Positions 19,885 through 35,462 of a stretch of 47,765 bases of DNA are shown here, one piece after another. A program made the position numbers and the translations under genes. The stretch covers positions 1 to 47,765 of the forward strand of contig RXIY01000017.1 of NCBI GenBank assembly GCA_003963405.1, given 5' to 3'. Position 1 is the first letter of the stretch. Each line of letters starts with the position of its first letter. Source of the DNA: Hyphomicrobiales bacterium (GTDB lineage: Bacteria; Pseudomonadota; Alphaproteobacteria; Rhizobiales; Beijerinckiaceae). The notes under the pieces were generated by a model. The model saw nothing but the letters and a program-made list of their open reading frames with translations. It was not told where the DNA came from and ran no database searches.

Positions 19885-20037
19885 CGGGGAAGCCAATAGA
19901 GAAAGCCGCGCCAAAGCGCCATAGGCGCCGCGCCCGCCCGCTTGCCCGGCGGAGAGGCGCACTGGCGCGCGGGGGCTCGGGGTGATAAGGGACGCGATCA
20001 CTTCAAGGGGGCCTTCCGCCCCGATTCTTCGTGAAAC

Positions 20038-21324
20038 ATGTGCGCGCGGCGCGCCAGGCCATCAGGGACTGCGAATTCAGTGACGAGACACAGAAGCCTC
20101 TCGGATTACGCGTCGCGGCGATTCCGCCTTGCCGGCAACGCCCTCCTCGAATTCAACAATCCGTTCTTCGCCCAGATCGACAAGCTGAAGGCGGACTTCG
20201 AGGCCAATGGCGTCCATTTCGTCAGCTTCGCCAATTACGACTATCTGGGCCTCGCCAACCATCCGCGCATCCGCGAGGCGGCCAAAGAGGAGGTCGACGG
20301 ACTCGGCATTGGCGCGCTCGCCTCGCGGCTCGTCGGCGGCGAACGCACGACGCACAAGCAATTCGAGGCCGAGATCGCCAAATTCATCGGCATGGAAAGC
20401 GCGCTGGCGCTCGTCTCCGGCTATCTCGCCAATGTGACGACCATCGCCTATCTCATGAACGGCAAGCGCGACGCCATCTTCATCGACGAGCTCGCGCACA
20501 ACAGCATCGTTTATGGCGCCGAGGGCGCGCCGGCCCATGTCGTGAAGTTCCGTCACAACGACATGGACCATCTCGACCATCTGCTGGCCCGCCACCGCGA
20601 GGAATATCGCAACGTGCTCGTGGTGGTCGAGGGCGTCTACAGCATGGACGGCGACACGGCCGACCTGCCGCGCCTCTATGCGCTCAAGGACAAATACAAG
20701 ATCTGGCTGATGGTCGACGAGGCCCATTCCCTCGGCGTCCTCGGCGCGACAGGCCGCGGCCTCGCCGAGCATCAGGGCGTTGATCCGGGCCACATCGATC
20801 TGATCATCGGCACGCTTTCAAAGAGTCTCGCGTCCTGCGGCGGCTATGTCTGCGCCAAAAAGGAAGTGATCGACTGGTTCCGCTTCACGCTTCCGGGCTT
20901 CGTTTACAGCGTCGGCTTCTCGCCCGTCGTTCTCGCGGCGGCGCGCACCGCGCTGACGCTCATGCAGGAAGAGACCTGGCGCATCGACAAGCTTGCGAAA
21001 AACGCCGAACTCTTCCGCCAGGTGGCGCACGAAAACGGCTTCTCGACGGGCCCGGCCATCGGCCGCGGCGTGGTGCCGATCCTCTTCGAGAGCGACCTCG
21101 AAACCATGTGGGCGGCGCGTCACCTGCTCGAAAAGGGCTATTACGTGCCCCCGGTCGTGCGCATCGGCGTGCCCAAGGATGGGCCGCGTCTTCGTTTCTT
21201 CTTCTCCGCCAATCACACGGAGGCCGAAATCCGCGGCGTGGTCCAGGCGCTGCGCGAGATTCCGCCCGTCTCTGAAGAAGCGCAGCGCATCGTGGCCGCC
21301 GCCATGTCCGGCGCCGCCGCGTGA
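20038..21324 (+). CDS. Alpha-oxoamine synthase, serine palmitoyltransferase-like
   Basis: A PLP enzyme of up to 428 residues in the family of serine palmitoyltransferase (SPT), 8-amino-7-oxononanoate synthase and KBL, which condense an amino acid with an acyl thioester. Visible motifs are the substrate segment NYDYLGLANHP, DELAHNSIVYG with the PLP-stacking His, EGVYSMDGD, the cofactor Asp-His in VDEAHSLGVLG, and the Schiff-base lysine in GTLSKSLASCGGY (K262). DELAHNS and the region YALKDKYK...VDEAHS resemble the LCB2 subunit of eukaryotic SPT. Biotin synthesis is unlikely because no bio gene is nearby and the next three genes look like sphingolipid enzymes. The start may instead be the GTG at 20080. 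It heads a four-gene operon. The superfamily is certain; SPT activity is inferred. Confidence 0.85.
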   Translation: MCARRARPSGTANSVTRHRSLSDYASRRFRLAGNALLEFNNPFFAQIDKLKADFEANGVHFVSFANYDYLGLANHPRIREAAKEEVDGLGIGALASRLVGGERTTHKQFEAEIAKFIGMESALALVSGYLANVTTIAYLMNGKRDAIFIDELAHNSIVYGAEGAPAHVVKFRHNDMDHLDHLLARHREEYRNVLVVVEGVYSMDGDTADLPRLYALKDKYKIWLMVDEAHSLGVLGATGRGLAEHQGVDPGHIDLIIGTLSKSLASCGGYVCAKKEVIDWFRFTLPGFVYSVGFSPVVLAAARTALTLMQEETWRIDKLAKNAELFRQVAHENGFSTGPAIGRGVVPILFESDLETMWAARHLLEKGYYVPPVVRIGVPKDGPRLRFFFSANHTEAEIRGVVQALREIPPVSEEAQRIVAAAMSGAAA

Positions 21325-21392
21325 ACGCGGCGCCTTCCGCGTCATCTTGACGCCCTTTTGCGCAGAGTTTTTGAAGAGTAGGAATTTGAGAT

Positions 21393-22553
21393 ATGGCGCG
21401 AATCGACATCGTTCCGGTCGCGGGACTTTCGCATTTTCTTACCTTTTGCAAGCTGCCGCGCCTTCTCTACAAGGGCGCGCCGGGTTTCGCGGCGCCGCTC
21501 GACCTCGAACGCTGGACGCTCTTCGCCCATTTCCTCAATCCGCATTACAAGCTCGTCGAGGACCAGAAATTCCTCGCCCGCCGCGACGGGGAATGGGTCG
21601 GCCGCATCTCCGCCCATGTCTACAAGGACGGGATCACGCCCGTCGGCGCAAGCCCGGCGCAATTCGGCGCGCTCGACGCCGTGGATGATCCCGCGGTCGT
21701 CCGGGCGCTGACGGAGGCCGCCGAGGGCTGGCTCGCGGAAAAGGGCGCGACCCGAATCAACGGCCCCTTCTCGCCGACCATCAATGGCGAATGCGGCATG
21801 CTGGTCGAGGGCTTCGAGGCGACGCCCATGATTTTCATGCCCTGGCACCCGCCCTATCTCTCGCGCCATCTGGAGGCGCTGGGCTATGGCAAGGCCAAGG
21901 ATCTCCTCTCCTATCGCTTCGCCATCGACGAGGCCCTGCTCAACGAGAAGCCCCGCATCACCAGCCGCAAGGAATGGCGCGACCGCCTGACGCTTCGCCC
22001 GCTCGATATGGCGAAGCTCAAGACGGCCGAGACGGCTCTGATGGAGGAGCTTTTCAACGACGGCTGGAGCGAGAACTGGGGCTTCGTGCCCTTCACCAAG
22101 GCGGAGTTCGACTCGACGGCCGACGCGCTCAAGCTCGTCATGCCGCCGGAATTCGGCGTCGTCGCCGAGCTCGACGGCAAGCCGCAGTCCTTCGTCATCG
22201 CGCTGCCTAATCTCTTCGAGATCGTCTCCGATTTCGACGGCCGGCTTTTCCCCTTCGGCCTGCCGAAGCTGATTTCGCGCATGCGCAACCACAAATTCGA
22301 CGCGGCGCGCATCGTTTTGCTCGGCACGCGCAAGGCGTTGCAGAACAGCGCCACCGGCGGCGCCGTTCTGCTCGGCATGATCGAGGAGATGCGCCGGCGC
22401 GGCGCCTCGGCCTCGCTCAGGAATCTCGAAGCCGGCTGGGTGCTCGAGGACAATATCGCCATGCGCCGTCCGATCGAAATGTTCGGCGGGCAGATCGACA
22501 AGATCCACCGCATTTACGAGAAGCGTCTCGACAGTTCGGGAGCATCTTCATGA
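21393..22553 (+). CDS. GNAT-fold N-acyltransferase, candidate bacterial ceramide synthase
   Basis: A 386-residue protein of the large GNAT-like family that begins with a LPRLLYKGAPGFAAPL motif. The N-terminal part has WVGRISAHVYKDG and INGPFSPTINGECGMLVEGF. The second half carries a further acyltransferase-like module (ISRMRNHKFDAARIVLLGTRK, then GGAVLLGMIEEM). There is no signal peptide or clear membrane helix, so it is a cytoplasmic or peripheral protein. The ceramide synthase of Caulobacter is described as a GNAT-type N-acyltransferase unrelated to eukaryotic CerS. The position here between an SPT-like and a dihydroceramide-desaturase-like gene makes N-acylation of a long-chain base the best guess. 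AGGAAT lies upstream; the stop overlaps the next start by 4 bases. Confidence 0.75.
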   Translation: MARIDIVPVAGLSHFLTFCKLPRLLYKGAPGFAAPLDLERWTLFAHFLNPHYKLVEDQKFLARRDGEWVGRISAHVYKDGITPVGASPAQFGALDAVDDPAVVRALTEAAEGWLAEKGATRINGPFSPTINGECGMLVEGFEATPMIFMPWHPPYLSRHLEALGYGKAKDLLSYRFAIDEALLNEKPRITSRKEWRDRLTLRPLDMAKLKTAETALMEELFNDGWSENWGFVPFTKAEFDSTADALKLVMPPEFGVVAELDGKPQSFVIALPNLFEIVSDFDGRLFPFGLPKLISRMRNHKFDAARIVLLGTRKALQNSATGGAVLLGMIEEMRRRGASASLRNLEAGWVLEDNIAMRRPIEMFGGQIDKIHRIYEKRLDSSGASS

Positions 22554-23545
22554 CCGGCATTTCCGTCACCGCCCAGGGCGCCGACCGCTCGCATGTCGAA
22601 CGCCGGCGCCAAATCCTCGAAAAATATCCGCAGGTGCGGGAGCTCTTCGGCAAGGACCCTGTTACCTTCAGGATCACCGCCGGCATATTCGCCCTGCAAT
22701 TCGCCATCTCCGCCTGGCTCGGCTGGCTCGGCCTCTCCTATTGGTGGCTGTCGCTCATCCTCGCGATTTGCGTCGGCGCCTTCGCCAATCACGCCAATTT
22801 CGTCGTCATTCACGACGCGATTCACAATTGCGTGTTCGAGAGCCCGCTCGCCAACAAATGGACGGCGATCCTCGCCGATCTGCCCAACGCCTTTCCGACC
22901 GCGATGGGCTTTCGCTGCTACCACATCAAGCACCATTCGCATCTCTCGGCCTATGATTACGACGCCGACATTCCGAGCGAATGGGAAGTCGAATGGGTGG
23001 GCAACAGCACATGGCGAAAGGCGCTTTGGCTCTTCGGCTTCCCCGCCATTCAGCTCGCGCGCCTGTCGCGGCTGAAGGGGACCGTGCCGATCATGGGCAA
23101 ATGGACCTATATCAACATCGCGGTCATCGTCGCCTTCGATCTCTTCATGCTCTGGGCCTTCGGCCCCAACGCCCTGCTCTATCTCTTCTTCTCCTTCTGG
23201 TTTTCGGTCGGCGGCCTGCATCCGTTGAGCGCGCGCTGGCTTCAGGAGCATTTCGCCTTCGGACCCGATCAGGGCACTTTCGACTATTACGGGCCGCTGA
23301 ACCGGCTCGCGCTCAACATCGGCTACCACAACGAGCACCACGACTTTCACGAAATTCCGTGGACGCGTCTCCCCGAGCTGAAGGCGATGGCGCCGGAATT
23401 CTACGATACGCTGCGCGCCCACCGTTCCTGGGTGGCGCTGCTCGTCACTTTCGTCTTCGATCCGACCTATTCGCTCGGCACGCGTTCTGAAAATGTCACG
23501 CAGGCGGCCGAACCTACCCCTCCGGTCGCGGCCCCCGCGGAGTAA
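22550..23545 (+). CDS. Sphingolipid delta-4 (dihydroceramide) desaturase homologue
   Basis: A 331-residue membrane di-iron desaturase. The three histidine boxes are HDAIH (88-92), HIKHHSH (125-131) and HNEHH (260-264). Several stretches parallel animal and fungal DES1/DEGS: the N-terminal HVERRRQILEKYPQVREL, the segment YYGPLNRLALNIGYHNEHHD, and LKAMAPEFYDTL. These are specific to the delta-4 sphingolipid branch rather than to bacterial acyl-lipid desaturases. Four hydrophobic segments fit a desaturase that faces the cytoplasm. The expected reaction is introduction of a 4,5-trans double bond into dihydroceramide; hydroxylation at C4 is an alternative known in this family. Translation is coupled to the previous gene (ATGA overlap). 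The final ~20 residues are a Pro/Ala-rich tail. Confidence 0.88.
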   Translation: MTGISVTAQGADRSHVERRRQILEKYPQVRELFGKDPVTFRITAGIFALQFAISAWLGWLGLSYWWLSLILAICVGAFANHANFVVIHDAIHNCVFESPLANKWTAILADLPNAFPTAMGFRCYHIKHHSHLSAYDYDADIPSEWEVEWVGNSTWRKALWLFGFPAIQLARLSRLKGTVPIMGKWTYINIAVIVAFDLFMLWAFGPNALLYLFFSFWFSVGGLHPLSARWLQEHFAFGPDQGTFDYYGPLNRLALNIGYHNEHHDFHEIPWTRLPELKAMAPEFYDTLRAHRSWVALLVTFVFDPTYSLGTRSENVTQAAEPTPPVAAPAE

Positions 23546-23550
23546 GCCAA

Positions 23551-24198
23551 ATGACGCAGGACACCAGAACCGAAGCGCTCGACGCCTCGCCGCGCCTGTT
23601 CGAGAGCGACCTTCTGGACAAGCTCTCGCGCGTGCATCATCTCACGCCGGTGATCGTCTATACGCCGATCATTCTGGGCCTGACCTTCTATTCGCTGTCA
23701 TCCGTCGGCGCCGGACTGCTGCTCGCCGGACTCCTCATCGGCTATGTCGCCTGGACGCTGACCGAATATCTCGGCCATCGCTATCTCTTCCATACGGTGT
23801 TTTCGCTGCCCTTCGGGCTCGGACCGCGTTTCCAGTTCCTGATCCACGGCGTGCATCACATCTATCCCAACGACCCGCTGCGGCTCGTGATGCCCCCGCT
23901 CCTTTCGGCGCCGATCATGCTGATCGCGCTCGCGATCATCCGCCCGCTGTTCGGCGCGAGCTTCTGCTGGCCGGTGCTCGCGGGCTTCATGACGGGCTAT
24001 GTCATCTATGATTGCGTGCACTATTGGACGCATCACGGCCAGCCGACCTCGGACTTCGGCAAGTGGGTGAAGCGGCTCCATATGCTTCACCATTTCCGCG
24101 ACGCCGAGAAAGGCTTCGGCGTCCACGCGATCTGGTGGGATTACGTCTTCGGCACGGCCTATCGGAAGGAAGAGACGCCGGGGACGAAGGCGGTCTGA
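23551..24198 (+). CDS. Fatty acid 2-hydroxylase-like membrane protein
   Basis: A 215-residue protein of the fatty acid hydroxylase superfamily. It has four hydrophobic segments and the histidine clusters GHRYLFH (75-81), HGVHH (99-103), CVHYWTHHG (155-163), HMLHHF (177-182) and GFGVH (188-192). Spacing and context such as NDPLRLVMPP and GFGVHAIWWDYVFGT follow eukaryotic FA2H/Scs7, which 2-hydroxylate the fatty acid of ceramides. The cytochrome b5 domain of many eukaryotic forms is missing, so electrons must come from another carrier. It begins 5 bases after the desaturase stop, with GGAG overlapping that stop. It is the last gene of the operon. A carotenoid or sterol hydroxylase is less likely given the motif context. 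Confidence 0.86.
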   Translation: MTQDTRTEALDASPRLFESDLLDKLSRVHHLTPVIVYTPIILGLTFYSLSSVGAGLLLAGLLIGYVAWTLTEYLGHRYLFHTVFSLPFGLGPRFQFLIHGVHHIYPNDPLRLVMPPLLSAPIMLIALAIIRPLFGASFCWPVLAGFMTGYVIYDCVHYWTHHGQPTSDFGKWVKRLHMLHHFRDAEKGFGVHAIWWDYVFGTAYRKEETPGTKAV

Positions 24199-26632: not shown

Positions 26633-29503
26633 CTACGCCGCCTCCGGCGCCGCGCCGACGAGGCGCCTTGCTTCCTGCGCGCTGATCGGGCGCCCGAAGG
26701 CGTAGCCCTGCGCATAGCCGCAGCCGAGTTGATAGAGCTCGATGGCGTCGGCCTCGGTCTCGGCGCCCTCCGCCACGACATCCATGCCGAGATCCTGCGC
26801 CAGCGCGATGAGCGAGCGCAGAATGACGGGACGGGCGCCCTTGCCGCTCTGCTTCACGAAGGAGCGGTCGATCTTGATCGTGTCGAAGGGGAAGCGTTGC
26901 AGATAGGCGAGCGAGGAATAGCCCGTGCCGAAATCGTCGAGCACGAGGCCGGCGCCGAGTTCCTTCACCCGCGCGAGCATCTGCGCGGCATATTCCGGGT
27001 TCTCCATCACGAGCCCCTCGGAGAGCTCGAGCTTGAGGCTGCCCTTGACGACATTGTGGCGCATCAGCACGCTTTTCACGTCGCGCAGCAGATCGTGGCG
27101 CAGCAACTGGCGCGATGAGACGTTGACCGAGGCGAAGATCGGCGGATCGACGGCGAGCGCCCGCTGCCAGGCGGCGAGTTCGCGCGCCGACCGCTCGAGC
27201 GCCAGCAGGCCAAAATCGACGATGAGCCCCGTCTGCTCGGCGACGGGCACGAACTGCGCCGGCTCCAGACGGCCGAGCCGCGGATGATCCCAGCGCAGGA
27301 GCGACTCGAAGCCCGCAATGGTGCGATCCTCGAGCCGAACGATCGGCTGGAAGAAGACCTTCACCTCGCCGCGCTCCAGCGCCCGGCGCATGTCGGCTTC
27401 GAGCGTCACCCGGTCCGACCGCTGCACGCGCATGGAGGGGCGGAACACCTCGATGCGGTTGCCGCCCGTGCGCTTGGCGAAGCGCATGGCGATCTCGGCG
27501 TCGTCGAGCATGTCGCTCGCGCCGGGATGCACCTGCTGATCGTAGAGCGCGATGCCGATCGAGGCGAAAAGCGCGATCTCGCGATCCGCGAAGCGCACCG
27601 GCGTCGCGAGCGACCGGCGGACCGAGTCGGCGAGCGTGATCACATGATCCGGATGGGTCTCGGACACGAGGATGATCGCGAAAGTGTCGCCGTTGAGACG
27701 CGCGAGCGTGTCCTGCGGTTGCAGAAGGCGCGTGAGGCGGTGCGCGACGGTCAGCAGGATGCTGTCGCCCATGGCGACGCCGACCTGCTCGTTGATCTGG
27801 CGGAAACGGTCGATGTCGATGACGAGCGCCGTCGGGCGCACGTCCTTCTCCATGCGCGCAAAGACGAGCGCCGCCTCGAGCCGGTCGAAGAACAGCTCCC
27901 GGTTGGGCAGGCCGGTCAGATTATCGTGGACGGCGTCGTGGAGCAGGCGCTCCTGGGCGTTACGCTCATCGGTGACGTCGGTCAGCGTGCCGACGACGCG
28001 GATCACCTCTCCGTCGGGGCCGACGACGGGCCGCGCCCTGAGCCGGTAGCAAAGATAATGACCGTCGGCCGCGCGCAGGCGAAACTCCTGATTGATCCGC
28101 CCCCGGCGCTGCTCCAGCAGCGCGTCGAGACAGGCGCGGTAGCGGTCCTGCTCGAAAGGATGCAGCAGATCGAGCCAGGAGGAGGCGGCGCCCTCGAGCC
28201 CGCCGCGGTCGAGGCCGAGCGCCGCCTCGGCCTCCGGGCTCACATAGATATGGTCGGCCGGCACGTCCCAGTCGAAGACGATCTCATTGGCGCCGGTCAT
28301 GGCCAGCGCCTTGCGCTCCACGTCGCCGATCGCGCCTTGCGACAATCCGCCTGTTGCAAAGGCGTTTTGCATCACCGTGAAGCCGATCAGCATGACGATG
28401 AGCACCAGGCCGCCGACGAGCGCGGGCGAGACGAGGTCGTTCGTCATCCAGCCCGCGACGGCGAAACCCGCGGTCGCCACCCAGACGACGAGCAGGAACC
28501 AGGTGGGGATCAGCATGATCGCCCGCTCGAAGCCGTGCGAGGCGAGATAGAGCACCAGCACGAAGCCGACCACGGCGATGGTCGCGAGCGAAATGCGGGC
28601 GACGCCGGCCGCGACCGGCGCGTCGAAGAGCGCGAGACCCACGAGATCGAGCAGGATCAGCAGCCACAGCGCCGCGACATGCCAGGCGCGCACATGCCAG
28701 CGCGCGAGATTGAGATAGGCGAAGAGGAAGACGACAAGGGTCGCCGAGAGCACCGTCTCGGCCCCCGCGCGCCAGACGCGATCGGCATTGGCGTCCGAAC
28801 CGAAGATCTTGTCCCAGAAACCGAAGTCGATGCAGACATAGGCGAGCACCGCCCAGGCCAGCGCCGCCGCCGCGGGAAAGATCACCGCCCCCTTCACCAC
28901 GAAGACGATGGTGAGGAAGAGCGCGAGCAGGCCCGCAATGCCAATGACGATGCCCTTGTAGAGGGTGAGGCTCGTCACCTTGTCCTTGTAGGCCTCGGGC
29001 TCCCACAGATAGAGCTGCGGGAGGTTCGGCGTGCGCAGCTCGGCCACATAGGTGACCGTCGTTCCGGGGTCGAGGGTGAGCCGGAACACGTCGGCGTCGG
29101 CGGAATCCTCGGCCTCGGGCGGGAAGCCCTGGCTCGCCGTGATGGCGGAGATGCGGGTCGAGCCGAGGTCGGGCCAAATGACGCCGGAGCCCTGGAGCCG
29201 GAAATGCGGGGCGACGAGCAGGCGCTCGATCTGCTCGTCCGTATCGTTCGTCAGCGCGAAGACGATCCAGTTCGGACGGCTGCCCGCCTCGCGGGCGCCG
29301 ACCTCGATGCGGCGCACGATGCCGTCCGAGCCCGGCGCGGTCGAGACCTGCAGCCGGTCGCTCTGCGAGGAATGCTTTTCGACGACGTGGGTCAGGTCGA
29401 TCGCATGGGCGCCCTGCGGCACGCGCACCGATTCAACGCAGTAAGCCGCGGTCGTCATCGCCAGAAGGGCGAAAAGGGCGATCAGAAGCTTTTGAAGACG
29501 CAC
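26633..29503 (-). CDS. Membrane PAS-GGDEF-EAL signalling protein
   Basis: A 956-residue protein. It has a signal peptide (MRLQKLLIALFALLAMTTAAYC), an extracytoplasmic region to about residue 185, and about seven transmembrane helices between 185 and 380, a layout like 7TMR-DISM receptors. A PAS/PAC domain (about 400-515) precedes GGDEF (about 525-685) and EAL (about 700-945). The GGDEF signature is NGDTF, so diguanylate cyclase activity is doubtful. The EAL domain keeps its catalytic set: FESLLRW, NVSSRQL, LELSEG, LDDFGTGYSSL, IKIDRSF, AEGAET and QGYAFGRP. It is therefore most likely a c-di-GMP phosphodiesterase tuned by an envelope signal, with GGDEF possibly a GTP-binding regulator. The start is GTG at 29503, with AGAAGAGA upstream. 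Confidence 0.9.
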   Translation of the reverse strand: MRLQKLLIALFALLAMTTAAYCVESVRVPQGAHAIDLTHVVEKHSSQSDRLQVSTAPGSDGIVRRIEVGAREAGSRPNWIVFALTNDTDEQIERLLVAPHFRLQGSGVIWPDLGSTRISAITASQGFPPEAEDSADADVFRLTLDPGTTVTYVAELRTPNLPQLYLWEPEAYKDKVTSLTLYKGIVIGIAGLLALFLTIVFVVKGAVIFPAAAALAWAVLAYVCIDFGFWDKIFGSDANADRVWRAGAETVLSATLVVFLFAYLNLARWHVRAWHVAALWLLILLDLVGLALFDAPVAAGVARISLATIAVVGFVLVLYLASHGFERAIMLIPTWFLLVVWVATAGFAVAGWMTNDLVSPALVGGLVLIVMLIGFTVMQNAFATGGLSQGAIGDVERKALAMTGANEIVFDWDVPADHIYVSPEAEAALGLDRGGLEGAASSWLDLLHPFEQDRYRACLDALLEQRRGRINQEFRLRAADGHYLCYRLRARPVVGPDGEVIRVVGTLTDVTDERNAQERLLHDAVHDNLTGLPNRELFFDRLEAALVFARMEKDVRPTALVIDIDRFRQINEQVGVAMGDSILLTVAHRLTRLLQPQDTLARLNGDTFAIILVSETHPDHVITLADSVRRSLATPVRFADREIALFASIGIALYDQQVHPGASDMLDDAEIAMRFAKRTGGNRIEVFRPSMRVQRSDRVTLEADMRRALERGEVKVFFQPIVRLEDRTIAGFESLLRWDHPRLGRLEPAQFVPVAEQTGLIVDFGLLALERSARELAAWQRALAVDPPIFASVNVSSRQLLRHDLLRDVKSVLMRHNVVKGSLKLELSEGLVMENPEYAAQMLARVKELGAGLVLDDFGTGYSSLAYLQRFPFDTIKIDRSFVKQSGKGARPVILRSLIALAQDLGMDVVAEGAETEADAIELYQLGCGYAQGYAFGRPISAQEARRLVGAAPEAA

Positions 29504-29923
29504 ATTCTCTTCTCGGCTGCGGCCTGCGGGCCGGCTCTTCTCTTCCTCGGGAGGCGTTCACTAATCGCGGATCGCGGCCAGGTCGCGACAAAGGCTGGGC
29601 GAAAATGAAGCCCATGGCGCTCAACTTGCCCGAGGCCCTGGTTCCTCGGGCCGCCCACCCCCGCCCTGCCGGGCCCGGAGGCGCGCTCTCACCCGAAAGC
29701 ACTAGTGCCTCCCAGCCTCTTCCGCAAGCCGGATTCAAACCGGGGAAAATGCGGTATGCTCCTTGCGAGGGAAGGTCGGCCGCGCTTGCGAATGGCGAAG
29801 GCGGCCAATATACCCTTGTAGACGTAGCAGCGCGGCGCGCGCGGATTTCCCGAAAAAGGGCGAACGGCGGTTTCGCGACGGTCCGGCCGCGGGCGTCGCC
29901 TTGTGGATGGGAATGAATTGAGC
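29504..29923. other. Divergent intergenic region before ptsP
   Basis: This 420-base gap separates divergent genes. Short frames are present but have no credible start or composition. It should contain both promoters; I found no strong -35/-10 pair. A T-arm-like element on the minus strand near 29728 does not extend into a tRNA. Confidence 0.4.
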
Positions 29924-32188
29924 ATGCGTAGCGCTCTCGGCGGTCCCCGCCTTCTGCTGCGCCGGCTGCGCGAGATCAGCGCGGAGTCGGTGAGCGCGCA
30001 GGCGCGTCTCGACAAGATCGTCGTGCAGATCGCCGCCAACATGGTCGCCGAGGTCTGCTCCGTTTACGTGCTGCGCGCCGATCAGCGCCTCGAGCTCTAT
30101 GCGACCGAGGGCCTGAACCGCGAGGCCGTCCACCAGACGACCATGCACGCCGGCGAGGGCCTCGTCGGCCTCATCGCCCGCAGCGCCGAACCGCTGGCGC
30201 TTTCCGAGGCGCAGGATCACCCCGCCTTCGCCTACAAGCCGGAAACGGGCGAAGAGGCCTATCACTCCTTCCTGGGCGTGCCGATCCTGCGCGGCGGCTC
30301 GACGCTCGGCGTCCTCGTCGTGCAGAACAAGGTCCGGCGCGTCTATTCCGAGGAGGAAGTCGAGGCGCTGCAGACGACGGCGATGCTGCTCGCCGAACTC
30401 ATCGCCTCGGGCGAGCTGCAGGCGATCGAGGACCCGCGCGACCTCGCCCTCTACCGCCCCGCGACGCTCAGGGGCGCCCCCATGTGCGAGGGCGTCGGCC
30501 TCGGCCATGTGCTGCTGCACGAGCCGCGCGTCGTCGTGAAGCAGCTCGTCGCCGAGGATCTATCGCGCGAGCTCGTTCGTCTGGAGCAGGCGGTCGACGC
30601 CATGCGCGCGTCGATCGACGAGCTCGTCGCCCATGGCGACCGCATGGGCGTGGGCGAACATCGCGACGTGCTCGAAACCGTGCGCATGGTCGCCTATGAC
30701 CGCGGCTGGGTGCGCCGCCTGCGCGAGGCGGTGAAATCCGGCCTGACGGCGGAAGCCGCGGTGGAGCGCGTGCAAAGCGACGCCCGCGCCCGCATGCAGC
30801 GCCAGACCGACCCCTATCTGCGCGACCGGCTGCACGATCTCGACGACATCGCCAACCGGCTCCTGCACCAGCTCACCGGCCAAAGCTACGTCGCCGACCG
30901 CGACAGCGTGCCGGAGAACGCCATCATCGTCGCCCGCACCATGGGGCCGGCGGCGCTGCTCGACTACGACCGCGCGCGGCTGCGCGGCCTCGTGCTCGAG
31001 GAGGGCGGCCCGTCGAGCCATGTCGCCATCGTCGCCCGCGCGCTCGGCGTCGCGACCGTGGGCCTCGTGCCGGGGATCATCGATCTCGTCGAGACGGGCG
31101 ACCCGATCATCGTCGACGGTTCGACGGGCGAAGTGCATGTGCGGCCGCAGCCCGACGTGCAGAGCGCCTATGCCGAGAAGGCGCGGCTGCGCGCGCGGCG
31201 CCAGGAGCAATACGCCCGGCTGCGCGACGTGCCCGCCGTGACCAAGGACGGCGTCGAAATCGCCCTGCACATGAATGCGGGGCTCGCCATCGACGTGCCG
31301 CATGTGCACGAGACCGGCGCGCAATCGATCGGCCTCTTCCGCACCGAGCTGCAATTCATGCTGGCCTCGCGCTTTCCGCGCATGGACGAGCAATATCGCT
31401 TCTACAGGGGCGTCTTCGACGCCGTGCCGGATCGTCCCGTGACCTTCCGCACGCTCGATATCGGCTCGGACAAGATTCTTCCCTACATGGCGAAGATCGA
31501 CGAGGAAAACCCGGCGCTGGGCTGGCGCGCGATCCGCATCGGCCTCGACCGGCCGGGCCTGCTGCGGATGCAGTTGCGCGCCATGCTGAAGGCGGGCGCG
31601 GGCCGCGAATTGCGCATCATGTTTCCCATGATCGCCAATGTCGCGGAGTTCGAGGCGGCCAAGTCCATCGCCCTGCGCGAGCTCGAGCATCTGAGGCGCC
31701 ATCGCCATCCCGAGCCGCAAACGCTCCGGCTCGGCGCCATGGTGGAAGTGCCCTCGCTTTTGTGGGAGCTCGATCTCATCGCCGAGCGCGCCGATTTCCT
31801 CTCGGTCGGCTCGAACGACCTGGTCCAGTACATGTACGCCGCCGACCGCGACAATACGCGCGTGTCGAAACGCTACGACAATCTCTCGCCCCCCGTGCTG
31901 CGCGCGCTGGAGCGCATCGCCGATACGGGGAAGCGCGCCGGAACGCCGGTGACGCTGTGCGGCGAGATGGGCGGACGGCCGCTCGAGGCGCTCGCCCTGC
32001 TCGCGCTCGGCTACCGCTCGCTTTCCATGTCGCCCTCTGCCATCGGCCCGGTGAAGTCGATGATCCTGAGCCTCGATCTCGACGAGGCGCAGGTCTATCT
32101 CGCGACGCTGCTCGCGGCCAATGACGGCGCGCCCTCGCTGCGCGACAAGCTGCGCGACTATGCGCTCGCGCGCGGCGTGCCCTTGTAG
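29924..32188 (+). CDS. ptsP: PtsP, enzyme I of the nitrogen phosphotransferase system
   Basis: A 754-residue EI-Ntr. An N-terminal GAF domain (about 20-160) binds effectors such as glutamine in homologues. The PTS enzyme I part has the phosphohistidine in [12 protein letters not shown] near residue 365, and the PEP-binding TIM barrel with [14 protein letters not shown], the NDLVQY segment and the catalytic cysteine in TLCGEMGG near 679. It takes phosphate from PEP and passes it to NPr and EIIA-Ntr, a regulatory chain linked to nitrogen status and potassium homeostasis. The frame opens 21 bases earlier at a GTG, but 29924 gives the N-terminus [17 protein letters not shown] expected for rhizobial PtsP. 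It is followed by prfA 59 bases later, a common alphaproteobacterial order. Confidence 0.95.
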
Positions 32189-32247
32189 CGGCGCTTTCTT
32201 GCCGCCCAAAAAAGCCGCGCCCCTTTATCCTCTCTCAAAAGATCAAG

Positions 32248-33318
32248 ATGTTCGCACAAGACAAGCTCGACCTCATCATGCGCCGCTATGAGGAAATCGG
32301 CGAGAAACTCGCCAGCGGCGCCGATGGGCAGGCCTTCGTCGCCCTCTCGCGCGAGCGCGCGAGCCTCGACGAGGTGGTGGAGGCGATCCGCGCCCATCGC
32401 GCCGCCGAGCGCGAGGTCGAGGATCTCGACGCCATGCTCGCCGACGGCGGGCTCGATCCCGACATGCGCGCCCTCGCCCAAGCCGAGATCGACGAGGCGC
32501 GCGAACGGCGCGAGGCGACCGAAAAGGCGCTGCAATTCGCCCTGCTGCCGAAGGACGAGGCGGATGAAAAGGGCGTCATTCTCGAAGTGCGCGCCGGCAC
32601 CGGCGGCGACGAGGCGGCGCTGTTCGCCGGCGATCTCTTCCGCGCCTATCAGAAATACGCCGCGCTGAAGGGCTGGCGCGTCGAGCTCGTCTCGGAGAGC
32701 CCCGGCGCGCTCGGCGGCTTCAAGGAAATCGTCGCCGAGATTCAGGGGCGCGGCGTCTATGGGCGCCTGAAATTCGAGTCCGGCGTCCATCGCGTGCAGC
32801 GCGTGCCCGCAACAGAGACGCAGGGGCGCATCCACACCTCCGCCGCGACGGTCGCGGTGCTGCCGCAGGCGGAGGACGTCGACATCACCATCGACGACAA
32901 GGACCTCAACATCGAGACGATGCGCTCGGGCGGCGCGGGCGGCCAGCACGTCAACAAGACGGAATCGGCGATCCGCATCACCCATATTCCGAGCGGCATC
33001 GTCGTGATGATGCAGGAGGAGCGTTCGCAGCACCGCAACAAGGCGAAGGCGATGACTCTTCTTCGTTCACGCCTCTACGACGCCGAGCGCAGCCGACTCG
33101 ATCAGGAGCGCTCCGACGACCGCAAGAGCCAGGTCGGCTCGGGCGATCGTTCCGAGCGCATCCGCACCTATAATTTTCCGCAAGGGCGCGTCACCGACCA
33201 CCGCATCAATCTGACGCTCTACAAGCTCGACCGCGTGATGGAAGGCGAGTTCGATGAAATCATCGACGCGCTGCTGACCGACCATCAGCAGAAGCTTCTG
33301 GCGCAAAGCGCGGCGTGA
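32248..33318 (+). CDS. prfA: Peptide chain release factor 1
   Basis: A 356-residue class I release factor. The stop-codon recognition tripeptide is PAT (in RVPATETQG), which identifies RF1 (UAG/UAA) rather than RF2 (SPF). The peptidyl-tRNA hydrolysis motif is GGQ, in [12 protein letters not shown] near residue 233. Length and N-terminal coiled region are normal. The methyltransferase gene prmC, which often follows and modifies the GGQ glutamine, is not here; a small minus-strand gene follows instead. Confidence 0.97.
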
Positions 33319-33378
33319 GCGCCGCGCTCGTCTGCACCCAGCGCAGCCGCCCCTTGCAATGATCGAGGCTGGATTCCC

Positions 33379-33705
33379 TTACCAGCCGGGGACGGTCCCG
33401 TTATCCATGATGCTGCCGTTTTCGGTGTACCAGGTCGGATCGTAACCGCCGCGCTGCTCGAGGAAATAATTGTCGTTGTTCTGCGCGTTCGGCTTGAGCG
33501 TCCCGCTCGCCGGATTGCCGGCGCCGTCGTCGAGCCAGTCCTTGTTGGTGGTCAGATCCTTGGGAAGCGGAATGGCGTTCGGATCCTGCGACACGGCCCC
33601 CTGCGGGGCCGGCGCCGGCTTGCGGGATTTCGCGAGCGCGGCGTCTCCGCCGGCAAACGCCGAGACCAGAGCGACACAAAGAGACAATCGAACCGCGCGG
33701 CGCAT
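33379..33705 (-). CDS. Small exported protein of unknown function
   Basis: A 108-residue protein that I cannot assign to a named family. It begins MRRAVRLSLCVALVSAFAGG with likely cleavage after DAALA near residue 25. The mature part is hydrophilic, rich in Asn, Asp, Pro and Gly, has no cysteine, and ends NGTVPGW; it is probably periplasmic and partly disordered. The start at 33705 has TGGAG upstream and starts the signal peptide; an in-frame start 30 bases further upstream is less likely. It is a lone gene between prfA (convergent) and purH (same strand). Confidence 0.65.
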   Translation of the reverse strand: MRRAVRLSLCVALVSAFAGGDAALAKSRKPAPAPQGAVSQDPNAIPLPKDLTTNKDWLDDGAGNPASGTLKPNAQNNDNYFLEQRGGYDPTWYTENGSIMDNGTVPGW

Positions 33706-33769
33706 GGCGAACTCCAGAAAGAATACAATCTCCAAAACACCTTAGCCGGAACCGGTATGCCTGCGCTAG

Positions 33770-33807
33770 AGCCTTTTCCGGTCCGATGCAACGGATCGGA
33801 AAAGGCT
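33770..33807. repeat. Long palindrome downstream of purH
   Basis: AGCCTTTTCCG pairs perfectly with CGGAAAAGGCT, and the inner GGTCCG / CGGATC pair extends the stem around a short ATGCAA loop. It resembles dispersed palindromic repeats of Rhizobiales. It could also act as terminator for purH, whose stop lies about 60 bases away. Confidence 0.6.
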
Positions 33808-33869
33808 CCAGCTTCTTGTTTCGCCGCGCTTTCTGCGGCCGAACCGGTCTCCCCTTCGGCGGAACGCGC

Positions 33870-35462
33870 CTAATGCCGGAAGTGCCGCACGCCCGTGAAC
33901 ACCATGGCGAGGCCCGTCTCGTCCGCGGCGGCGATCACGTCCTTGTCGTTGACCGAGCCGCCGGGCTGAATGACGGCGGTCGCTCCTGCCGCCGCCGCCG
34001 CGAGCAGGCCGTCGGGGAAGGGAAAGAAGGCGTCGGAGGCGACGACCGAGCCCTTGGCGAGGCTCTCGGCGAGACCCGCCGCCTGCGCCGCCTCGCCCGC
34101 CTTGTGAGCGGCGGTGCGCGAACTGTCGACGCGCGACATCTGCCCCGCGCCAATGCCGACCGTCGCGAGGTCCTTGGCGTAAACGATCGCGTTGGACTTC
34201 ACATGCTTCACCACCCGATAGGCGAATTTCAGATCGGCAAGCTCGCGCTCGGTCGGCGCGCGCTTCGTCACGACCGTCAGCGCCATGTCGTCGACGACGG
34301 CGTTGTCGCGCGACTGCGCGAGGAAACCGCCCCCCACGCTGCGAAACACGAGCCCCGAGGCGCGCGGGTCCGGCAGGCCGCCGGTCAGCAGCAGGCGCAG
34401 ATTCTTCTTGGCGGCCACGATCGCCGCCGCCTCGTCGTCGGCGTCCGGCGCGATGATGACCTCGGTGAAGACCTTCACGATCTCGCGCGCGGCCGCGGCG
34501 TCGAGCCTGCGATTCGTCGCGACGATGCCGCCGAAGGCGGAGACGGGGTCGCAGCGCAGCGCCTTGCGGTACGCCTCTTCGAGCGACGCGCCTTCCGCCA
34601 CGCCGCAGGGATTGGCGTGCTTGACGATGACGACGGCGGCCGTGCGCGCCGGATCGAACTCCGCGACGCATTCGAAGGCCGCGTCCGTGTCGTTGACATT
34701 GTTATAGGAGAGCTGCTTGCCCTGCGCCTGCCGCGCCGTGGCGACGCCGGGCCGCGCCTCGCCGGTGAGATAGAAACCCGCCGCCTGATGCGGGTTCTCG
34801 CCGTAGCGCATGGGCTCGGCCAGCCGGCCGCCAAAGGCGCGCACGGGCGGCGACGCCTCGCCCAGATGCTGCGCAAGCCAGTTCGAGATCGCCGCGTCAT
34901 AGGCGGCGGTGCGCGCGAAGGCTTTCTGCGCGAGGCGCCGGCGCGTGGCGATGAGCGTCGCGCCGCCCGTCGCCGTCATCTCGTCGACGATGGCGGCGTA
35001 ATCCGACGGGTCGACCACCACGGCGACGTCGTCGTGGTTCTTGGAGGCCGCGCGGATCATCGCCGGGCCGCCGATGTCGATATTTTCGACGCATTCGTCA
35101 AAGGGCGCACCCTTCGCGAGCGTGGCCTCGAAGGGATAGAGATTGACGACGAGCAGGTCGATCGGGGCGATGTCATGCGCGAGCATCGCCGCCTCGTGCT
35201 CGGGATTCTCGCGGATCGCCAGCAGGCCGCCATGCACTTTCGGGTGCAGCGTCTTGAGCCTTCCGTCCATCATCTCGGGAAAATGGGTGAGGTCGGAAAT
35301 GTCCCTGACGGCCAGGCCCGCATCCGCGAGCGCCTTGCGCGTGCCGCCCGTCGAGACCAGCTCGACGCCATGGCCGGCGAGCGCGCGCGCGAATTCGACG
35401 AGGCCCGTCTTGTCGGAGACGGAGAGAAGCGCCCGCGCGACTTTACGCTGATCCACCGGCAT
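33870..35462 (-). CDS. purH: Bifunctional AICAR transformylase / IMP cyclohydrolase
   Basis: A 530-residue PurH that performs the last two steps of IMP synthesis. The N-terminal cyclohydrolase (MGS-like) domain has [19 protein letters not shown] and the [13 protein letters not shown] segment. The C-terminal AICAR transformylase domain has RYGENPHQ, the catalytic Lys-His in [10 protein letters not shown], and [12 protein letters not shown] near the end. The open frame runs 211 codons further upstream in shadow of the heparinase gene; the real start is [17 protein letters not shown] at 35462, with GGGAGG at proper distance. It follows a heparinase-like gene by 62 bases on the same strand, a pairing that I recall in many alphaproteobacteria. 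The window also ends in purB of the same pathway. Confidence 0.96.

Follow-up and report, generated by a model that had tools for sequence, protein, structure and literature searches.

Among membrane lipids, ceramide is typical of animals and plants, and the locus described here raises the question of whether a methane-eating bacterium makes it too. We analysed positions 1 to 47,765 of contig RXIY01000017.1 (47,765 nucleotides, hereafter the window) from a Hyphomicrobiales genome of the family Beijerinckiaceae (GCA_003963405.1), for which the nearest named genomes and contigs are Methylocystis. The window carries a ceramide-type gene set, spt-cerS-des-fah, coding for a serine palmitoyltransferase (SPT)-like alpha-oxoamine synthase (P0001), a ceramide synthase homologue (P0002), a DES-type desaturase (P0003) and an FA2H-like hydroxylase (P0004). 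An earlier interpretation made from the letters and their translations (the sequence-only reading) had proposed that these genes form an operon that makes and tailors a desaturated, 2-hydroxylated ceramide. Our analysis suggests that the operon quite probably does make and tailor a ceramide, by a route that does without two enzymes of the Caulobacter pathway, CerR and AasR.

P0002 has no match in Pfam, NCBIfam or the sequences of the Protein Data Bank (PDB). It aligns to YghO of E. coli BL21 with 36% identity over 377 residues, and its AlphaFold model (pLDDT 87.9) resembles tandem GNAT proteins, the best being 7q3a with an E value of 4.6e-13; P0002 thus corresponds to the bCerS (YghO-type acyltransferase) of the Caulobacter-type pathway. 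It is the sole copy found in the genome at an E value of 0.001, and CerS homologues are present in 40 of the 289 genomes of the class. The synthase P0001 matches PF00155 and belongs to the alpha-oxoamine synthase family, where its nearest solved structures are the SPTs 3a2b and 8guh (8e-64); it is 33% identical to the Spt of E. coli BL21. In a tree of 22 synthases, from which the truncated one of locus L156 was omitted, the Beijerinckiaceae, the Verrucomicrobiota-type and the usual SPTs form three groups with bootstrap values of 100 each, the deeper joins and the placement of BioF and HemA being unsure. P0001 therefore lies outside the AcpR-linked SPT clade, in a clade apart from the E. coli and alphaproteobacterial SPTs compared, both clades having 100/99 support.

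Both tailoring enzymes resemble eukaryotic ones. P0003 scores 84.3 bits for PF00487 and 36.5 bits (cut-off 23) for the N-terminal domain PF08557 (Lipid_DES), and its three histidine boxes (H88/H92, H125/H128/H129 and H260/H263/H264) are conserved in 42-43 of 43 homologues, a combination that places it with the DES enzymes. PF08557 is lacking from a contrast desaturase at locus L063 that is 27% identical to P0003. P0004 (215 residues) has PF04116 as its sole Pfam domain (57.4 bits), and its nearest PDB match is yeast SCS7 (4zr1; E 4.7e-23 over residues 22-203), an alignment that assigns it to the core of the FA2H/SCS7 family. The N-terminal cytochrome b5 domain of the eukaryotic hydroxylase was not found in P0004 by Pfam search; this is not decisive for membership, and an Arabidopsis homologue without the domain is reportedly active, to go by the title of a reference. 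These findings uphold the families that the sequence-only reading had assigned (synthase, GNAT acyltransferase, DES-type and SCS7/FA2H-like enzymes) by Pfam, PDB matches, the YghO alignment and the model, and the coordinates of the open reading frames confirm its four plus-strand genes with gaps of 68, -4 and 5 bases. Its call of a delta-4 desaturase holds for the DES family, given PF08557 and the histidine boxes, and not for the delta-4 specificity, as Delta-4 desaturation and hydroxylation by P0003 cannot be told apart from sequence.

The arrangement is not a matter of chance, because DES occurs in 36 of the 37 genomes of the genus, the source genome included, and the order and strand of CerS, DES and FAH are constant in all 25 genus loci among those returned. 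SPT was seen in 21 of these 25 loci; the remaining four loci are short and do not run past the SPT position, and two of them contain SPT when re-fetched at greater length. Across the Pseudomonadota a DES profile matched 4 of 398 genomes at 1e-60, and P0003 alone at 1e-15 matched 3 of the 289 genomes of the class, namely the source genome and two partial matches. Within the family DES is common (68 of 248 genomes). For a wider comparison we used the best 80 of 547 confirmed loci, 36 of Beijerinckiaceae type (L077-L112) and 44 others, dropping alignments below 40% of the query, short-chain dehydrogenase/reductase (SDR) homologues below 42% identity and beta-ketoacyl-ACP synthase (KAS; ACP, acyl carrier protein) homologues below 50%. 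SPT, CerS and DES stand together in 33 of the 36 Beijerinckiaceae-type loci, the other three starting at contig ends, and FAH is found in 21 of the 36, in one case (L099) on the other strand. A gene of the PF04116 hydroxylase family also adjoins cerS in 13 of 29 other loci of the class (29 of the 41 cerS places outside the source genome), all three of those tested scoring above the Pfam cut-off, so that, as far as the hydroxylase is concerned, the coupling is not peculiar to this operon.

Comparison of neighbourhoods brought out a second set of genes. In Beijerinckia and relatives an ACP, a KAS, a dehydratase-like protein (without Pfam match), a MaoC protein, an SDR and a GT2 glycosyltransferase lie beside des, and a copy of this partner cluster is present in the source genome on another contig (C98), where a GT21 glycosyltransferase (P0014) is placed between the SDR and GT2. 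Partner genes adjoin the operon, whole or in part, in L090, L093, L094, L100, L101, L103-L107, L109 and L112 and likewise in L227, L236, L241, L242 and L243, whose genomes partly overlap the former set. They are mostly on the strand opposite to the operon; in L101 a rearrangement places des on the partner-cluster side, and in L241, L242 and L243 the entire operon including FAH is adjacent to the entire partner cluster. The GT21 protein scores 152.8 bits for PF13506 and matches a solved ceramide glucosyltransferase (26qf) with an E value of 2.1e-33 over residues 37-365, domain and similarity together marking it as a ceramide glucosyltransferase homologue. Among eleven partner clusters from operon-bearing genomes, read with alignments under 40% of the query dropped, the SDR is present in ten. 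GT21 is present in all six from FAH-bearing genomes (L222, L226, L228 and L241-L243) and in none of the five where the operon has no adjacent FAH (L224, L227, L236, L238 and L239); GT21 thus accompanies FAH, which is consistent with glucosylation of a 2-hydroxy-ceramide in this branch.

The two gene sets also occur together genome by genome. KAS orthologues with 58-73% identity were found in 10 of 10 operon-bearing Beijerinckiaceae tested, whereas three operon-free Beijerinckiaceae have only homologues of 38-42% and the best of one Verrucomicrobiota genome are at 37-38%. Of 248 family genomes, 63 have DES and KAS, 5 DES only, 16 KAS only and 164 neither (thresholds E 1e-30 for DES and 1e-100 for KAS, the latter scored on the best seven candidates per genome), giving a Fisher's test value of 2e-37 that ignores ancestry. 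Of the DES-only genomes, two are incomplete, at 84% and 76%, and the three others come from a single genus; in the two of these three that were inspected, DES stands without partner genes in the fetched stretch, one stretch beginning near a contig end. The KAS-only genomes comprise eleven of one genus, four with homologues of 50-54% and one, 86% complete, in a DES-bearing genus. In the family-wide KAS search 14 of 16 Methylocystis genomes had two KAS copies. The second copy of the source genome lies on C98 at 148838-150031 (L223:8833-10095), and no other partner genes were found in 20 kb around it. In one family genome (G373, L233:7411-10861) a CerS of 38% identity stands immediately beside acp-kas-dehydratase, a mix of the two modules.

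What we observe are the genes with their families, their order, how they are conserved and how they co-occur; from this we infer the reactions, their substrates, the order of the steps and the product. The partner ACP, KAS and two dehydratase-like proteins would supply an acyl chain on their own ACP, P0001 would condense L-serine with a long acyl thioester and P0002 would N-acylate the long-chain base. The SDR of the partner cluster, very likely the ketoreductase of the route, would reduce the 3-keto group; N-acylation is proposed to come ahead of reduction in Caulobacter (PMC11087976), and the SDR may therefore act on a keto-ceramide. The DES-type enzyme would then introduce the Delta-4 double bond, or a 4-hydroxyl, the FA2H-like enzyme would 2-hydroxylate the amide-linked acyl chain, and GT21 would glucosylate the ceramide, GT2 perhaps adding a further sugar. 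The sequence-only reading had held a ketoreductase and a dedicated ACP to be missing; that no longer applies, as candidates for both lie on C98, in a cluster adjoining the operon in several relatives. Its ceramide-making and tailoring operon stands by the CerS homology, PF08557, the likeness to SCS7, the conservation and GT21, and has to give up the Caulobacter route and certainty about delta-4. More tentatively, and with belief falling somewhat short of doubt, we speculate that methanotrophs and related Beijerinckiaceae make a eukaryote-style desaturated, 2-hydroxylated glucosylceramide through a second, separately assembled bacterial pathway, in which a dedicated ACP/KAS/dehydratase module supplies the chain, the SDR replaces CerR and DES acts on ceramide, and that soil Verrucomicrobiota have a parallel version with a phospho head group.

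Compared with the pathway of Caulobacter and E. coli BL21 (spt, acpR, aasR, cerR, cerS), the system described here has a homologous CerS, an SPT-type alpha-oxoamine synthase and a linked ACP. It differs in that the SPT is of another clade, neither CerR nor a dedicated AasR turned up in the Methylocystis genomes searched, KAS and dehydratases accompany the ACP, the operon includes DES and FAH, and GT21 is linked to it. The partner ACP is 25-39% identical to two AcpRs over 57-60 residues. With eukaryotic tailoring (DES1/DES2, FA2H/SCS7 and ceramide glucosyltransferase) it shares PF08557 and the histidine boxes as well as the matches of P0004 to SCS7 and of GT21 to the solved enzyme. Eukaryotes have an LCB1/LCB2 pair and a ceramide synthase of their own, as against a single synthase gene and a GNAT protein here. 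The nearest precedent for an SPT-type synthase fed by dedicated, carrier-bound chain synthesis is SgaAB of Pseudomonas fluorescens MYb115, described as a polyketide synthase/alpha-oxoamine synthase cluster for sphinganine (PMC12134224); there the chain comes from a one-module polyketide synthase, whereas here it would come from discrete ACP, KAS and dehydratases accompanied by CerS, DES, FAH and glycosyltransferases. Bacteroides BT_0972, reported as a 3-ketosphinganine reductase other than CerR (PMC11087976), is a precedent by role for the part proposed for the SDR. PMC9386255 states that rhodobacterial spt always co-occurs with ACP and acyl-CoA synthetase genes; the operon departs from this rule as regards its direct neighbourhood and the synthetase, though a different ACP is linked. 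The core enzymes are stated to be present in all sphingolipid-making bacteria (PMC11087976).

Several observations weigh against a ceramide pathway of this kind, and they bear on the alternatives to it. The partner SDR is of a generic classical type and might instead be the ACP module's FabG, the operon-adjacent partner cluster of L236 lacks it, and a second SDR stands beside fah in L241 (12307-13134) and L242 (8502-9338), which we note as a second ketoreductase candidate in those lineages. Shared ancestry is uncorrected in the co-occurrence test, and two KAS-only genomes inspected from the genus of eleven have acp-kas-dh-maoC without SDR, glycosyltransferases or the operon, so that the module can serve something else. 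It is accordingly conceivable, although we consider it improbable, that the partner cluster belongs to unrelated lipid or polyketide chemistry, for instance a hopanoid glycosyltransferase set, that its closeness to the operon is accidental, and that a housekeeping ketoreductase and acyl donor are used. P0014 does match HpnI, at 150.9 bits against a cut-off of 310, and a protein of the FAH superfamily has been proposed as hopanoid desaturase in another methanotroph (PMC6460317), as P0004 could be likewise. A separate, proper HpnI is however encoded elsewhere in the genome (contig C28, 387.8 bits), for which reason we rejected HpnI as the identity of P0014; the adjacency of operon and partner cluster recurs in several genera, KAS is present in 63 of the 68 DES genomes, and the solved relative of GT21 is a ceramide glucosyltransferase. 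Another way to supply the steps outside the operon would be the Caulobacter pathway itself, its CerR, AcpR and AasR genes scattered as they are in Sphingomonadaceae, since ceramide genes are described as scattered in Zymomonas and Sphingomonas (PMC9386255, PMC11324152) and P0002 is homologous to the Caulobacter-type CerS. We searched with CerR and AasR profiles built from the annotated E. coli BL21 cluster and three alphaproteobacterial loci. In all six genomes that have the usual set (three also supplied profile rows), CerR was matched at 1.3e-93 to 3.9e-165 and AasR at 8.5e-235 or better. The search for a CerR-like reductase, which the sequence-only reading had proposed as a check, gave only partial, superfamily- or paralogue-level matches in five of five Methylocystis genomes (6e-25 to 1e-26), similar to those in three operon-free relatives (7e-22 to 3e-31). 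In four of the five Methylocystis genomes, AasR-like domain matches (1e-112 to 1e-121) speak for scattered genes, but they sit within long open frames of 958-986 codons, G249 and G343, two of the three operon-free relatives, have similarly strong matches (frames of 645 and 1312), and AasR was not found at 1e-20 in the operon-bearing G019. Next to spt no ACP-like open reading frame was seen, the AcpR profile not having been run genome-wide. By these profile searches we judge dedicated CerR and AasR to be absent from the Methylocystis genomes searched, and with P0001 in a different clade from the Caulobacter-type SPTs we find the scattered version hardly credible.

The operon's own enzymes leave room for two further alternatives. 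P0001 is below all NCBIfam equivalog cut-offs; its top score is for bioF (TIGR00858, 342 of 426 bits), it reaches 293.9 of 500, 288.2 of 640 and 208.6 of 670 bits for the SPT equivalogs, and its clade is distinct from the usual SPTs. It might then be another oxoamine synthase, BioF-like and using glycine or alanine, with another amino-ketone or a 1-deoxy lipid as product. We regard this as very unlikely, as the genome has two other synthases of the family, HemA on contig C9 (558.9 bits against a cut-off of 338.55) and a BioF-like gene on contig C40 (best NCBIfam bioF, 360 bits from a truncated translation, cut-off 426) that adjoins a gene reading as BioA; P0001 itself was rejected as BioF on account of this C40 gene, and it is below the TIGR00858 cut-off and outside a bio operon. 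CerS, DES and the ceramide glucosyltransferase homologue travel with P0001, and the one Verrucomicrobiota synthase tested also misses the NCBIfam cut-offs. For P0003 the matches of the model to solved structures by Foldseek are weak (best 8xks_K at 7.6e-4, SCD1 at 0.13), and sequence searches of solved structures gave nothing useful, one returning no match and another a single chance match at an E value of 0.49. DES2 enzymes are bifunctional, and PF08557 cannot separate a desaturase from a hydroxylase. A ceramide-like product could hence be made with the DES-type enzyme as a hydroxylase, of C4 of the base or of the N-acyl chain, and be phytoceramide-like or doubly hydroxylated; for the DesA-family protein CC_0202 of Caulobacter, hydroxylation of the amide-linked acyl chain has been suggested (PMC11324152). 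However, 21 of 36 Beijerinckiaceae-type loci have a separate gene of the hydroxylase family, which lessens the need there for a second acyl hydroxylase, and we consider this version unlikely, though worth keeping in view.

Coupling of both tailoring enzymes to SPT and CerS is not unique to this lineage. Metagenome-assembled genomes (MAGs) of soil Verrucomicrobiota (L114-L150, for example L138:9974-15187) have the order des-fah-spt-CDP-alcohol phosphotransferase-cerS, and 17 of the 44 loci outside the Beijerinckiaceae carry all four enzyme types. The CDP-alcohol phosphotransferase has a homologue at 60% or more in 20 of these 44 loci, the others being short contigs. Like the operon studied here this is one co-directional cluster of the four enzyme types; it differs in gene order, in the clade of its SPT and in having an enzyme for a phospho head group in place of the glycosyltransferases, which suggests a hydroxyceramide with a phospho head group. 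The sequence-only reading had named no described bacterial operon with both tailoring enzymes coupled to synthesis; in a literature search that was not exhaustive we likewise found no description of a bacterial DES or of a DES-FAH operon, but among genomes these MAGs have both enzymes. Locus L132, one of the 17, is labelled Acidobacteria; its synthase groups with a Verrucomicrobia one, so mis-binning may explain the label. A DES about 50% identical to P0003 is present in 13 loci labelled as Bacteroidota groups (including L113, L115, L118, L119 and L124), and SPT, CerS and FAH homologues were not found within the fetched flanks; nor did the 18 kb stretch around the lone DES of G055 (53%) contain any of these three. 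In an alphaproteobacterial MAG (L156:3-1837) a synthase 41% identical to P0001 is followed by a DES of 49%, cut by the contig end.

The literature on lipids also weighs on the other side. We found no report of sphingolipids in Methylocystis or in any other named methanotroph, in a search that was not exhaustive, and according to a 2020 survey the sphingolipids of Alphaproteobacteria appear restricted to Sphingomonadales (PMC7179689). A taxonomic table gives a sphingolipid as one of the polar lipids of R. fermentans Pf56 (PMC11936349), an alphaproteobacterium set there beside Roseiarcaceae and Beijerinckiaceae; this fits sphingolipids near the family and is not tied to any gene here. Ceramide is mentioned in samples in PMC12322946 and attributed to various bacterial or eukaryotic sources. 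Should the operon make ceramide, neither CerR nor AasR would be general, and the sphingolipid makers would include methanotrophs, other Beijerinckiaceae and soil Verrucomicrobiota. Bacterial DES genes would make a bacterial origin of Delta-4 unsaturated long-chain bases testable, and would offer, together with their neighbours, simple systems for the medically interesting DES, FA2H and ceramide glucosyltransferase.

Coordinates of the operon genes in the window and of the partner cluster in the source genome.
Feature	Position	Strand	Basis or remark
Whole operon spt-cerS-des-fah	20038..24198	+	gene order conserved in genus loci
spt-like alpha-oxoamine synthase P0001	20038..21324	+	428 aa as first called; start probably GTG 20080
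cerS P0002, tandem GNAT, bCerS/YghO family	21393..22553	+	YghO homology and model
des P0003, DES-type sphingolipid desaturase	22550..23545	+	PF00487 and PF08557 Lipid_DES
fah P0004, SCS7/FA2H-like hydroxylase without cytochrome b5 domain	23551..24198	+	PF04116
Partner cluster acp-kas-dh-maoC-sdr-GT21-GT2	G000:C98 about 29200-35000 (L222:8704-14506), outside the window		own-genome copy found

The GTG start of P0001 is preferred to the ATG at 20038 because its SPT orthologues begin at residue 15 of the open reading frame as first called. A scan for promoters and terminators gave no promoter-like site and five terminator-like sites, against 4.2 in shuffled sequences. The genes flanking the operon look unrelated to it: judged from their translations, a CcmA/CcmB-like pair and a penicillin-binding protein lie upstream, and downstream are an NAD-dependent DNA ligase and a GGDEF/EAL protein. 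Third-position GC is 0.81-0.85 across the four genes, and the G+C content of the window dips marginally at 20001-24000, to 0.62-0.64 compared with 0.64-0.72 in the other 2-kb steps.

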